Shown piece by piece: positions 36,052 to 40,926 of a stretch of 64,000 nucleotides of DNA. The notes under the pieces were generated by a model. It was not told the origin of the DNA. It did no database searches and saw nothing but the letters and a program-made list of their open reading frames with translations. Source of the DNA: Flammeovirga sp. SJP92 (GTDB taxonomy: Bacteria > Bacteroidota > Bacteroidia > Cytophagales > Flammeovirgaceae); NCBI RefSeq assembly GCF_001583495.1, contig NZ_LQAQ01000061.1, positions 682,001-746,000 of the forward strand, given 5' to 3'. The first letter of the stretch is position 1. Each line of letters opens with the position of its first letter. The translations under genes and the position numbers were made by a program.

Positions 36052-37005
36052 TTAAAAGATATTTTTAACCTTTTTCACCACTTCATTAAAGAACGCTTCA
36101 GACCAGAAATTCTTTTTGATTTTTGCATAGACTTCTTTTTCTATTTCATCAAAAATTGGATCTGAATATAGCTTTTTCCCTTTCCTTGCTAATTCTAAAG
36201 CCACCACATATTCTTTGTTGATCATTGTAAAAAGTAAACCTAAAAGAAAGTCTCTGATGCTGATGCTCTCTTTTTCCAAGTTATTCAAATATGAGATCTC
36301 AACCCATAAAGGGGCCTTTTTCAGCGTCACCTTGGCCAACTTTTTATTCAAAGCACCAGAGAATAAATTCTCATATGTTTTATGAGTACCTCTAATTACT
36401 TTTTGTACTTCGTACTCTGAAAGCCAGAAGCTTTTGTCTGCCATATAATTGAGGATAGAACTTGCATTGTCTTCTCCATTATATGTTTGTGTCAAGCCAG
36501 GTTCAAAATCAATAGCTAGAGCATTGTCCTGAATACCCGGTTTCAAACTTCTTAAAATTCTAAGATCAATACCTTGAGAATCTGTTTTCAGCCAATCCAC
36601 ATAGTCCAATGACAACTTTTCCAAGGCATGACTGATAGAGATATTATTGAGCTGAATAGTTCGATCTAATTCGAAATAAGGAGAGAAAATATAATCTTTT
36701 ACGTTATTCTCATTGGGGATAAGTGTGCTGGAGCAATAAGGACTCTTTGTCAGATGGAAGTCTAATTTTTCAGCTTCCTGATCTGATACAATACAATTGA
36801 ATTTATAGAGCTTTTTGAAACCTTGATTATCTTCTTCAGAGATGTCAAACTTTCTATCATCTGCATCAAAAGCAATACAAATTGAATAAGGAGCAATTTC
36901 TTTCCACTTTGCATGGATTTCTCCTGAGGCTCCTACATCTACTAATACAGGTGGTTTGTTTGTAAATTCTTCTCTTGAAAGAATTCGTTTCGCGATTGAA
37001 TGCAT
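36052..37005 (-). CDS. FkbM-family methyltransferase
   Basis: 317 residues, no signal or membrane segment. The N-terminal SAM-binding part begins PVLVDVGASGEIHAKW (about 19-34; motif I D-x-G-A-x-G), followed by IAFDADDRKF, and LDYVDWLKTDSQGIDLRIL (about 130-148), which carries the FkbM-type K-x-D-x-x-G. The family O-methylates sugars, lipids or natural products; the substrate here is unknown. The C-terminal 100 residues are charged and unlike standard FkbM. It lies alone, downstream of htpG and past that gene's terminator. Confidence 0.78.
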   Translation of the reverse strand: MHSIAKRILSREEFTNKPPVLVDVGASGEIHAKWKEIAPYSICIAFDADDRKFDISEEDNQGFKKLYKFNCIVSDQEAEKLDFHLTKSPYCSSTLIPNENNVKDYIFSPYFELDRTIQLNNISISHALEKLSLDYVDWLKTDSQGIDLRILRSLKPGIQDNALAIDFEPGLTQTYNGEDNASSILNYMADKSFWLSEYEVQKVIRGTHKTYENLFSGALNKKLAKVTLKKAPLWVEISYLNNLEKESISIRDFLLGLLFTMINKEYVVALELARKGKKLYSDPIFDEIEKEVYAKIKKNFWSEAFFNEVVKKVKNIF

Positions 37006-37158: not shown

Positions 37159-39033
37159 TTAGATGATTTCTAATGAACGGTTAATGAATGCAGTAAGATC
37201 AGCACCTTTCAAGTTACCTTGAGAAAGTTTTGCTAAATCGTAAGCATGTTTCACCAATTTATCTTGAGCTGCAGTATCCTCTTCTTTCAAGATTCTACCT
37301 ACAAGTTCGCTGTTTCCGTTGATAGTTACTGTATCAGCACCAGGGAAACCACCAAACATGCCACCCATTCCACCTTGCATCGCAGACATTTCTTCCATTC
37401 TACGCATGAACTCAGGCTTAGTGATCATTACCGGTAATTCGTCAGCAGTCATCGCCTCTACTTTTGGTTCCAACTTGTCATCATTCAAGGCACGCTTGAA
37501 GATCTCTACCAACTTCTTAGTTTCGTCCTCTGTTAATACAGATTCGTTTTTCTCGTCCGTTTCGATCAAGTTGTTTACCGTATCAGAGTCGATACGCTTC
37601 ATTGTGATGTTCTCGAACTTGTGCTCTGTATTGCTTACAAAGTGGCTGTCGATCATCGTATCCATTTTCAAGATATCATATCCTTTCTTCTTTGCCGCTT
37701 GAATATAAGTATCTTGCGTACCTTGGTCAGTAGCATAAAGGAATACGTGCTTGCCGTCCTTGTCAATTTGGTTAGAAGCTATATGTTCTTTGTACTCCTC
37801 TAAAGTAAATTTCTTACCGTCGATGTTTTCAAACAAACCGAATTTCTTTGCTTTGTCAAAGAACTTGTCGTCTGTCATCATACCGTACTTCACAAACAAA
37901 CCAATGCTCTCCCACTTCGTCTCATAGCTTTCTCTTTCGTTTTTGAACAAGCTGCTCAAACGATCTGCAACCTTACGCGTTACATAGCTAGAGATTTTCT
38001 TCACGTTCGCATCCGACTGTAAGTAAGATCTTGATACGTTCAATGGAATGTCTGGAGAATCAATTACACCGTGCATTAAGCGTAAGAACTCAGGCATAAT
38101 TTCCTCTACGTTGTCAGTGATAAACACCTGACGAGAGTACAATTGAATCTTGTCTTTATGAGGAGTGATATCTTCTTTTACTTTAGGGAAGTAAAGAATA
38201 CCAGTCAATTCAAATGGGTAATCCACGTTTAAGTGAATCCAGAATAAAGGCTCTTCAGACATTGGGTACAACTCTTTGTAGAAGTTGATGTAATCCTCGT
38301 CAGTTAATGTCTTAGGATCTTTTGTCCAAAGTGGCTCTTTTTGGTTGATGATATGTGGCTCAACGATTTCTACGTCTTTTGCATCATCACCTTCACCTTC
38401 TTTTTCAGTTCTTTTATCTACACCTACTTGGATAGCGATAGGCATAAACTTAGAGTATCTGTTTAAGATAGTACGTAAACGGTGCTCGTCTACAAACTCT
38501 TCAGAATCCTCATTGACATGAAGTACGATTGTAGTACCTCTGTCTGCTTTGTCAGCGTCAGTGATTTCATAAGTAGTTGAACCATCACAAGTCCATTTTA
38601 CTGATGGAGCATCTTTGAAAGATTTTGTGATTACTTCAACATGGTCAGAAACCATAAATGCTGAATAGAAACCAAGACCGAATTTACCGATGATTGTAGA
38701 AGTATCTACATCTTTGAATTTCTCAACAAATTCAGTAGCACCAGAAAATGCAACTTGGTTGATATATTTTTCAACTTCATCCTCACTCATACCGATACCA
38801 CGGTCAGTGATTGAAATTGTTTTTGCTTCCTTGTCTACATCAACTTGAATCGTTAGATCACCTAGTTCACCATCAAACTCGCCCATTGAAGCAAGTTTTT
38901 GAAGTTTCTGAGTTGCATCAACTGCATTGGCTACCAACTCACGTAAAAAAATGTCGTGATCTGAGTATAAGAACTTTTTAATGATAGGAAAGATATTTTC
39001 AGTGTTTACTGAAATAGAACCTTTTGCTGCCAT
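37159..39033 (-). CDS. htpG: molecular chaperone HtpG (Hsp90)
   Basis: 624-residue bacterial Hsp90. The GHKL ATPase domain has FLRELVANAVDA (Glu/Asn box near 30-37), ITDRGIGMSEDE (Asp of motif I, near 77) and IGKFGLGFYSAFM. The middle domain contains FPKVKEDITPHKDKIQLYSRQVF (by position about 285-307) and the catalytic-loop Arg region NVSRSYLQSD. Near the C-terminus is a Met/Gly-rich insert (MQGGMGGMFGGF) that looks lineage-specific. It assists folding and remodelling of client proteins under stress. Monocistronic, divergent from a long non-coding region. Confidence 0.97.
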   Translation of the reverse strand: MAAKGSISVNTENIFPIIKKFLYSDHDIFLRELVANAVDATQKLQKLASMGEFDGELGDLTIQVDVDKEAKTISITDRGIGMSEDEVEKYINQVAFSGATEFVEKFKDVDTSTIIGKFGLGFYSAFMVSDHVEVITKSFKDAPSVKWTCDGSTTYEITDADKADRGTTIVLHVNEDSEEFVDEHRLRTILNRYSKFMPIAIQVGVDKRTEKEGEGDDAKDVEIVEPHIINQKEPLWTKDPKTLTDEDYINFYKELYPMSEEPLFWIHLNVDYPFELTGILYFPKVKEDITPHKDKIQLYSRQVFITDNVEEIMPEFLRLMHGVIDSPDIPLNVSRSYLQSDANVKKISSYVTRKVADRLSSLFKNERESYETKWESIGLFVKYGMMTDDKFFDKAKKFGLFENIDGKKFTLEEYKEHIASNQIDKDGKHVFLYATDQGTQDTYIQAAKKKGYDILKMDTMIDSHFVSNTEHKFENITMKRIDSDTVNNLIETDEKNESVLTEDETKKLVEIFKRALNDDKLEPKVEAMTADELPVMITKPEFMRRMEEMSAMQGGMGGMFGGFPGADTVTINGNSELVGRILKEEDTAAQDKLVKHAYDLAKLSQGNLKGADLTAFINRSLEII

Positions 39034-39210: not shown

Positions 39211-39242
39211 TTTGGGTTAATATTAAAAATGTAATAGATTTG
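39211..39242 (+). promoter_or_regulatory. consensus promoter without a downstream gene
   Basis: TTTG (39211-39214), a 20-nt spacer, and TAGATTTG (39235-39242): an exact match to TTTG-N20-TAnnTTTG. The nearest downstream ORF on this strand is 455 nt away, beyond a terminator. Confidence 0.65.
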
Positions 39243-39247
39243 TAGAC

Positions 39248-39566
39248 GACGTTGACAATTTTGGATGACATTAATTTTCATTAACATTTAGTGTAACGAT
39301 TGTTTTCGTCACATAATAAACCATAGAAACACTCTCTTACTAAATATCTAACAGCGGGTATAAAAAGATTTAAACTAAATCAACAAGTAATCAGTCTTTT
39401 ACAGCGTCATGTAAAAAGATATTCCCTTTTAGAAACACATTTTAGTATATCACAGAGTTTTTCAAAACGTCGCAAAGTAATGACGCATTATTTACTTTGC
39501 CTTCAAATTTGTATAAGTAGTCACACATCATAATGAAAAGGCTGTTGAATATTTCGACAGCTTTTT
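39248..39566 (+). ncRNA. candidate small RNA or attenuated leader
   Basis: An RNA of about 320 nt would run from the promoter at 39211-39242 to the terminator at 39536-39566. Within it, GCAAAGTAA (39472-39480) and TTACTTTGC (39492-39500) form a perfect 9-bp hairpin. The only ATG-initiated ORFs are under 10 codons. It may be a free sRNA or a terminated leader of the DEAD-box helicase gene 130 nt further on. It is not recognised as tmRNA, RNase P, SRP or 6S RNA. Confidence 0.45.
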
Positions 39567-39570
39567 TCTT
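39536..39570 (+). terminator. intrinsic terminator with no upstream gene on its strand
   Basis: AAAAGGCTGT (39536-39545)/ACAGCTTTTT (39557-39566) with one G-T wobble and a T-rich tail. The nearest upstream gene, htpG, is on the other strand and points away. Confidence 0.75.
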
Positions 39571-39696
39571 TTACAAGAATTTATAACAAAGTAAACACCC
39601 TATATCTTACTATTATTAATGACCTTTTAGAAATGATACTATGCTCTAAAGTTTCAAACCCCTAACTTTGTGAAAATTTTAAACTCATTATTGTCC

Positions 39697-40926
39697 ATGA
39701 CATTTGAAGAATTGGGAGTTATCCCTGAAATCCAAGAAGCATTAGAAAACAGAGGGTATGACACACCTACCCCAATTCAAGAAAAAGCCATTCCATCTAT
39801 TCTAGAAGGTAATGATCTGCAAGGCAGTGCTCAAACCGGAACTGGAAAAACGGCTGCTTTTTGTATTCCTATTATTCAATTGTTGAAGAAGAACTCCAAT
39901 AATGGTAAAAAGATCAGAGCACTCATTATCACTCCTACACGTGAATTAGCCCTTCAAGTAGGAAATAACTTCAGTTTATACAATCAAAAGACAAAACTGA
40001 AACAACTTGTTATTTTTGGCGGGATTCCCCATGACAAACAAATCAAAAGGTTGAAGCAAGGTGTGGAAGTACTTATTGCCACTCCTGGCCGATTACTCGA
40101 TTTACATCAGCAAGGTTATGTAGATTTAGGTCATGTAGAAAATTTTGTACTGGATGAGGCAGACAAAATGCTGGACATGGGATTCATCAATGATATAAAA
40201 AAAATCATTACGCTCATACCAGCCAAAAGGCAGACATTACTTTTCTCTGCCACGATGCCTGATACAATTCAAAAAATCAGTAAATCCATTCTTCATAATC
40301 CACTAAAAGTAGAGGTAACACCTGTTTCATCTACTGCTGATACCATTGATCAGTTCATCTATTATGTAGACAAAAGGAACAAAAAACAATTGCTTTTTGA
40401 AATTCTAGATGATGATAAAAAAGACAGTGTGCTTATTTTCATGAGAACGAAAAGAGGGGCCAACCATCTTGCCAAAACACTCAATGATAACCGTGTAAAA
40501 GCAGAAGCTATTCATGGTAATAAGTCACAAACTGCACGACAGAGAGCACTTGAGAATTTTAAGAAAAAGAAAACACGAATCCTTGTCGCAACTGATATTG
40601 CCGCTCGTGGTATTGATATTAGTCAGCTGAAATACGTTATCAATTTTGAGATCCCTGAAGTAGCAGAAACTTATGTGCACAGAATTGGGCGTTCTGGAAG
40701 AGCAGGAGAAGAGGGTGTTGCGATTTCACTTGCTGACGGCACTGAGTTACAAGATGTGAAAAGTATTGAAAAACTCATTGGGCATAAAATCCCCGAGATA
40801 AAAGAGAATCCTTTCCCAATGCAGGAGAAGGAAAAAGATATTGCTCAACAAGCGGCAAAAAGAAAGAAACAAATCAAAAGAAGTAAACAAGGCAATAGAA
40901 GAAAGAAGAAAAAGGACAGCAAGTAA
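39697..40926 (+). CDS. DEAD-box RNA helicase (RhlE-like)
   Basis: 409 residues from the ATG at 39697, which gives the MTFEELGV start typical of RhlE; an in-frame GTG at 39670 would overlap the promoter box TAACTTTG and is less likely. Motifs are complete: Q motif (GYDTPTPIQ), I QTGTGKT, Ia PTRELA, GG, Ib TPGR, II DEAD, III SAT, IV SVLIFMRT, V ATDIAARGID and VI HRIGRSGR. The short basic C-terminal tail (QAAKRKKQIKRSKQ) binds RNA. Roles are RNA unwinding, ribosome assembly and cold adaptation. It ends 4 nt from the convergent kinase gene, with no terminator between. Confidence 0.95.
   Translation: MTFEELGVIPEIQEALENRGYDTPTPIQEKAIPSILEGNDLQGSAQTGTGKTAAFCIPIIQLLKKNSNNGKKIRALIITPTRELALQVGNNFSLYNQKTKLKQLVIFGGIPHDKQIKRLKQGVEVLIATPGRLLDLHQQGYVDLGHVENFVLDEADKMLDMGFINDIKKIITLIPAKRQTLLFSATMPDTIQKISKSILHNPLKVEVTPVSSTADTIDQFIYYVDKRNKKQLLFEILDDDKKDSVLIFMRTKRGANHLAKTLNDNRVKAEAIHGNKSQTARQRALENFKKKKTRILVATDIAARGIDISQLKYVINFEIPEVAETYVHRIGRSGRAGEEGVAISLADGTELQDVKSIEKLIGHKIPEIKENPFPMQEKEKDIAQQAAKRKKQIKRSKQGNRRKKKKDSK

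Follow-up and report, generated by a model that had tools for sequence, protein, structure and literature searches.

A putative RNA gene between htpG and a DEAD-box helicase gene

The window, the whole 64,000-nucleotide stretch of Flammeovirga sp. SJP92 DNA that was analysed, contains a putative RNA gene flanked by htpG and a DEAD-box RNA helicase gene (Table 1). Its promoter, TTTG-N20-TAGATTTG, which the first-pass annotation had described as the cleanest in the window, is the sole full consensus on the plus strand; the complete pattern TTTG-N19-21-TAnnTTTG occurs once on that strand and twice when both strands are considered. Some 320 nt downstream, on the same strand, lies the terminator reported in that annotation, its stem arms (39535-39549 and 39553-39567) followed by a T run, and the view that no ORF separates the two elements is borne out by the lack of any ORF of at least 30 aa on the plus strand within 39245-39560. 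A generic sigma-70/terminator scanner flagged neither the promoter nor the terminator of the RNA gene; the promoter was missed because the pattern employed by the scanner is of the E. coli -35/-10 type. The ATG of the helicase gene, at 39697, is located ~126 nt past the terminator, close to the ~130 nt originally estimated, and is preceded, as had been noted, by a box of its own, TAACTTTG. Elsewhere in the window a 317-aa ORF (36052-37005) displayed no Pfam match at E < 0.001.

Table 1. Features of the RNA gene and its neighbours (positions are those of the window).
Feature	Position	Strand	Basis
htpG (Hsp90), divergent neighbour in all nine species	37159..39033	-	Pfam HSP90; tblastn
RNA-gene promoter, TTTG (-33)-N20-TAGATTTG (-7)	39211..39242	+	sequence; TTTG 39211-39214, -7 box 39235-39242
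Predicted transcription start	~39246-39249	+	
RNA gene, ~325 nt, without ORF	39246..39571	+	conservation, fold, ORF scan
Core rod, 5' arm, ACTCTCT-N18-GGG	39331..39358	+	exactly 28 nt in all nine species
Core rod, 3' arm (CCC ... AGAGT), pairs with 5' arm	39424..39458	+	moderate support
Perfect 9-bp hairpin, GCAAAGTAA/TTACTTTGC	39472..39500	+	arms 39472-39480 / 39492-39500; covariation
33-nt block TTCAAATTTGTATAAGTAGTCACACATCATAAT, mainly unpaired	39502..39534	+	alignment of nine species
Proposed seed core GUAGUCACAC, complement of intergenic sites GTGTGACTAC	39517..39526	+	
Intrinsic terminator, 15-pair stem including A-U/G-U pairs, T run	39535..39571	+	
Separate promoter box of the helicase gene, TAACTTTG	39663..39670	+	sequence
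DEAD-box RNA helicase gene, neighbour outside the RNA unit	39697..40926	+	Pfam DEAD + Helicase_C

Conservation and distribution

The RNA unit is present in one copy, and at the same place between htpG and the helicase gene, in all nine Flammeovirga genomes searched, and its DNA is conserved in each of the eight congeners (BLASTN). The first-pass annotation had looked to close relatives, and promoter, hairpin and terminator are indeed kept in every congener. The -7 box is retained in the nine species as TAGATTTG or, in one case, TAAATTTG, and the distance from box to terminator ranges from 322 to 409 nt among the congeners. The covariance search of related genomes that had been suggested was carried out with the 3' part of the RNA. 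The model scored 104-114 bits in the eight Flammeovirga genomes sampled, the window's own included, while elsewhere in the order the weak matches comprised terminator-like stems only, and no homologue was detected outside the genus. Nine further genomes of the family lacked the RNA block, and when GTDB species genomes were scanned for an exact 20-mer the only matches were four Flammeovirga records. The neighbours of htpG differ in other genera of the family and of the order, and the helicase orthologues outside the genus occur without the RNA. These comparisons support a free-standing, single-copy RNA gene of ~320-410 nt in the genus Flammeovirga.

The first-pass annotation offered two interpretations of the unit, a new sRNA or a terminated leader controlling the helicase gene. 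The former is the part that stands, on the strength of the conserved promoter, hairpin and terminator, the invariant single-stranded block and the covariation described below. As a terminated 5' leader, whether attenuator or riboswitch, the RNA would share the strand of the helicase gene and end 126 nt ahead of its ATG, as it does, and the helicase always follows the RNA unit. Against this arrangement, a TAnnTTTG box lies close before the helicase start in six of the nine species (with a near match, TACCTTTA, in G005). In most species the helicase is thus served by a promoter box of its own, and the idea of a terminated leader goes unsupported. Furthermore, the terminator stem is invariant across species, and no antiterminator pairing to it is conserved. 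The helicase drifts to ~40% identity between extreme congeners (htpG, 89-99%) while the RNA block stays fixed, orthologous helicases outside the genus lack the RNA, and the likely targets are elsewhere in the genome. Pairing of the block with the helicase or htpG mRNA starts was no better than that of shuffles. A role as helicase leader is therefore very unlikely, and no support emerged for the cold regulation raised in the first-pass annotation. The helicase adjacent to the RNA evolves unusually fast (39697-40926 and loci L005 and L009). In G007 and G008 it has the motif DEGD in place of DEAD, and at another locus both genomes carry a less diverged relative, 53% identical to the window's helicase.

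Structure of the RNA

The predicted fold of the 328-nt transcript from the window was more stable than all of 100 shuffles (z = -4.35), and the four full-length RNAs tested gave z values of -3.4 to -5.6. In the predicted fold, a variable 5' part precedes a rod-like core, after which come a covarying hairpin, the fixed and exposed 33-nt stretch and the terminator. The core displayed fold z values of -2.2 to -5.3 in seven of the nine species, the signal being weak in G007 and G008, and a cognate test of the rod pairing revealed no more than some group preference. The perfect 9-bp hairpin that had been placed between promoter and terminator (39472-39480 / 39492-39500) proved to covary: across the nine species five of its nine pairs have changed on both sides, with 100% of cells paired, compared with 42-58% in slid-partner controls. 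Between this hairpin and the terminator sits the block TTCAAATTTGTATAAGTAGTCACACATCATAAT, which is fixed in all nine species save for one A/T position. Its mean unpaired fraction, 0.52-0.83, exceeds that of the remaining RNA in every species.

The region is upstream of htpG, and intergenic stretches between divergent promoters are commonly conserved, features that would also be expected if there were no RNA gene and the sequence represented regulatory DNA between the divergent genes or belonged to htpG as a 5' or antisense element. The htpG start, however, is >450 bp away from the most conserved part, which has a terminator at its end; conservation tracks RNA structure, as seen in the covarying hairpin, and the block shows no excess pairing to htpG mRNA starts, making this interpretation highly improbable. 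The conservation of the RNA gene as a unit and the covariation of its hairpin are shown by sequence comparison, and the case for the gene is as good as such comparison can make it.

Sites complementary to the fixed block

A first search of the nine genomes with the complement of the fixed block, allowing up to three mismatches, returned 13 matches besides the RNA gene itself, compared with six for the reversed control. Most of the 13 were upstream of, or over the start of, genes for secreted polysaccharide-degrading enzymes or their regulator. The 10-mer core was picked after these approximate matches had been seen, and some of them recur among the 28 intergenic sites that follow. The word GTGTGACTAC has 95 non-self sites in the nine genomes, against 32 for the reversed word; 67 of these are coding and 28 intergenic, the latter compared with 4-6 expected from Markov models. 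The next gene is on the same strand at 27 of the 28 intergenic sites, where the null fraction is 0.57 (p ~3e-6, a value that counts orthologues separately). When orthologous leaders are counted once, ~14 families remain and the significance consequently drops.

The window's own genome gave no non-self match in the first search, from which the core was chosen. In this genome GTGACTACTT has eight non-self intergenic sites compared with an expectation of 1.6-1.9, and all eight are 27-222 nt ahead of an ATG on the same strand. The total number of GTGACTACTT sites in the genome is 28, against 35 for the reversed control, so that the excess is confined to the intergenic share. A ranking of k-mers, in which the core words came first in 1.6 Mb, was dropped; several of the stretches had been chosen for known matches, and the ranking is not counted as evidence because it was inflated by that selection. 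With the known sites removed the ranking retained a small excess, and an unselected 400-kb stretch yielded three looser sites only and no top-ranked k-mer. The sites account for only ~10-15 of the block's 33 fixed nucleotides. Sequence comparison shows that the complementary sites are in excess, how they are oriented and which genes surround them, and the regulon that they define is a well-supported prediction with known weaknesses.

Nearly all of the intergenic sites stand, in the sense orientation, ahead of or between genes encoding sulfatases, λ-carrageenase, GH110 and GH43 enzymes, a LamB porin and a hybrid two-component regulator. Among the genes downstream of the sites in the window's own genome are those for three sulfatases, a Reg_prop two-component regulator and a porin of the LamB type, and among the upstream genes those for a fucosidase, a mannosidase-type enzyme and again three sulfatases; the genus as a whole adds λ-carrageenase, GH110, GH43 and GH31 to this list. 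A sulfatase signature is found within 1.5 kb of 9 of the 28 intergenic sites but of only 2 of the 67 coding sites (Fisher p = 2e-4). Three further sites (AUGUGUGACUAC; L238, L243 and L274) overlap the start codons of GH110-like or GH31 genes, which favours action at the level of RNA. Many others lie 40-220 nt ahead of the start codon, beyond the range of classical start-site blockers. Predicted duplexes of the block with twelve sites ranged from -15.7 to -28.1 kcal/mol, accessibility cost left out, and the best own-genome site by this measure, at -28.1 kcal/mol, lies in the leader of the two-component regulator.

In several leaders (L218, L234, L276, L232 and L237) the motif is within a local hairpin. 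In its general tendency to be unpaired, however, the 10-mer in leaders is equivalent to that at coding sites, and presentation in a hairpin loop is thus limited to some leaders. The leader of one sulfatase gene (L218, L234 and L276) has the GTGTGACTAC site inside a hairpin whose stem varies by species (GGTAGC/GCTACC, GGTAGT/ACTACC and GGGGAGG/CCTCCCC), which suggests that the stem has undergone compensatory changes about a loop that stays fixed. A second copy of GTGACTAC is found ~20 nt before the main site in leaders of the hybrid two-component regulator (L220, L226, L255 and L264). Attenuation would be possible through the terminator-like hairpins that some leaders (L244, L255 and L264) carry between site and start codon, for example GGTGAGA...TCTCACC-T7 in L244 and AGAATGCCCTTAT...ATAAGGGCATTCT in those of the two-component regulator.

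The complementarity, together with the location of the motif in local hairpins of several leaders, could also be displayed by an RNA sponge or decoy that binds the same motif as a partner of the mRNAs and acts on the mRNAs only indirectly. The analysis turned up neither a second RNA nor a protein partner, direct pairing offers the simpler explanation, and we regard a sponge as having very little likelihood.

Comparison with known RNAs

Searches of Rfam, with the whole window at the gathering score and the region at E <=10, gave nothing meaningful. The 6S RNA model (RF00013) found no match in the region or the genome, which is weak evidence in this phylum as the model was also silent in a Bacteroides control. 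The window contains no tmRNA; that of the genome is at C87:5430-5838. The Bacteroidales-1 RNA model produced a full-length, sub-threshold match in the genome (22.9 bits against a cut-off of 60; G000 C60:56897-57071, L129), which is probably due to chance.

The RNA resembles 6S RNA in being free-standing and structured, with a rod-like core, but differs in the fixed single-stranded 3' block ahead of the terminator. A structured RNA that binds a protein or complex, be it 6S-like, sequestering or a scaffold, would be compatible with that core, with the fixed length of its 28-nt arm, suggestive of a binding platform, and with a 33-nt block that exceeds the length a seed requires; the complementary motif would then be an unrelated DNA- or protein-binding site, in keeping with GTGACTACTT totals that lack a genome-wide excess. 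No Rfam family was matched, however, 6S included, and the complementarity of such an unrelated motif to the best-conserved unpaired stretch of the RNA would have to be coincidental. An unrelated DNA site is also hard to reconcile with the sense-strand bias, the short intercistronic sites and the start-codon overlaps. Indeed, the sense orientation, short intercistronic gaps and start-codon overlaps point to RNA pairing rather than to a DNA-binding site. We therefore consider a protein-binding RNA unlikely, though it carries appreciable weight.

The RNA has two hallmarks of a trans-encoded base-pairing sRNA, namely its own promoter and intrinsic terminator without an ORF, and a conserved stretch, for the most part unpaired, whose complement occurs in several mRNAs in the sense orientation. 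The closest functional parallels are in Bacteroides thetaiotaomicron, where the FopS family comprises base-pairing sRNAs that repress translation of polysaccharide-utilisation mRNAs (PMC11697453). The Flammeovirga RNA has in common with FopS a conserved single-stranded seed, a housekeeping-type promoter and an intrinsic terminator (PMC11697453). FopS, by contrast, has 14 paralogues, a seed at the 5' end and RbpB as partner, and pairs near start codons, mostly those of SusC-like transporters (PMC11697453); the Flammeovirga RNA occurs as one copy in each of nine genomes, is 320-410 nt long, carries its seed near the 3' end before the terminator, and has sites mostly in leaders or between genes of sulfatases and glycoside hydrolases. 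No sequence relation between the two was detected. GibS, also from B. thetaiotaomicron, is similarly intergenic and conserved within one genus, with an extended single-stranded seed, targets in carbohydrate metabolism (predicted in the case of Flammeovirga) and no obvious Hfq or ProQ (PMC7366714); no Hfq was found here. GibS differs in being 145 nt, largely unstructured and provided with a 5' seed (PMC7366714), whereas the Flammeovirga RNA exceeds it in length, is structured and has its seed at the 3' end. The 5' unpaired seed of these RNAs (here the fixed block occupies 39502-39534, towards the 3' end) and the multicopy nature of FopS are thus not shared. Rfp18 of Flavobacterium psychrophilum, likened here by description, is a genus-conserved Bacteroidota sRNA with strong structure, for which one pairing region is proposed for several functionally related mRNAs, although its predicted targets are proteases (PMC9723704). 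The Flammeovirga RNA is best called a new family, a single-copy sRNA confined to the genus, whose seed is at the 3' end and whose predicted regulon comprises sulfated-polysaccharide genes, and we infer that it works like FopS and GibS without detected homology to either.

Proposed function

The complementarity of the invariant single-stranded stretch to sites before polysaccharide genes suggests that the RNA probably controls the use of seaweed polysaccharides. On these sequence comparisons we consider it rather probable that the RNA is a trans-acting, base-pairing sRNA of Flammeovirga that regulates sulfated-polysaccharide use. It would be transcribed, probably from its own housekeeping-sigma promoter, and end at the intrinsic terminator; the exposed stretch, with the seed GUAGUCACAC, would then base-pair with sites of the GUGUGACUAC type that mRNAs for sulfated-polysaccharide use carry in their leaders, between genes or across start codons, and pairing would change the translation or stability of these messages. 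By analogy with FopS, repression is the likelier direction. We infer transcription, pairing in the cell, the direction of the effect and the signal from these comparisons.

Flammeovirga is described as excelling at the degradation of algal polysaccharides, with the genes involved on second chromosomes (PMC8653839); literature searches for Flammeovirga turned up no noncoding regulator of polysaccharide use. A tentative extension of the base-pairing model, possible but doubtful, is that one single-copy RNA serves in this genus of seaweed degraders as a common post-transcriptional switch for scattered sulfated-polysaccharide loci, tuning single enzymes and the sensor-regulator. Recognition would take place at leader hairpin loops, at intergenic positions and across start codons, such that sulfatases, carrageenase, GH110 and the sensor-regulator would be tuned within the loci, beyond the first transporter gene. 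The predicted sites render the regulon directly testable. If the base-pairing model is correct, the RNA-level control of polysaccharide loci that is known in gut Bacteroides has arisen or been maintained separately in marine Cytophagales, where the RNA, the position of its seed and the genes targeted all differ.
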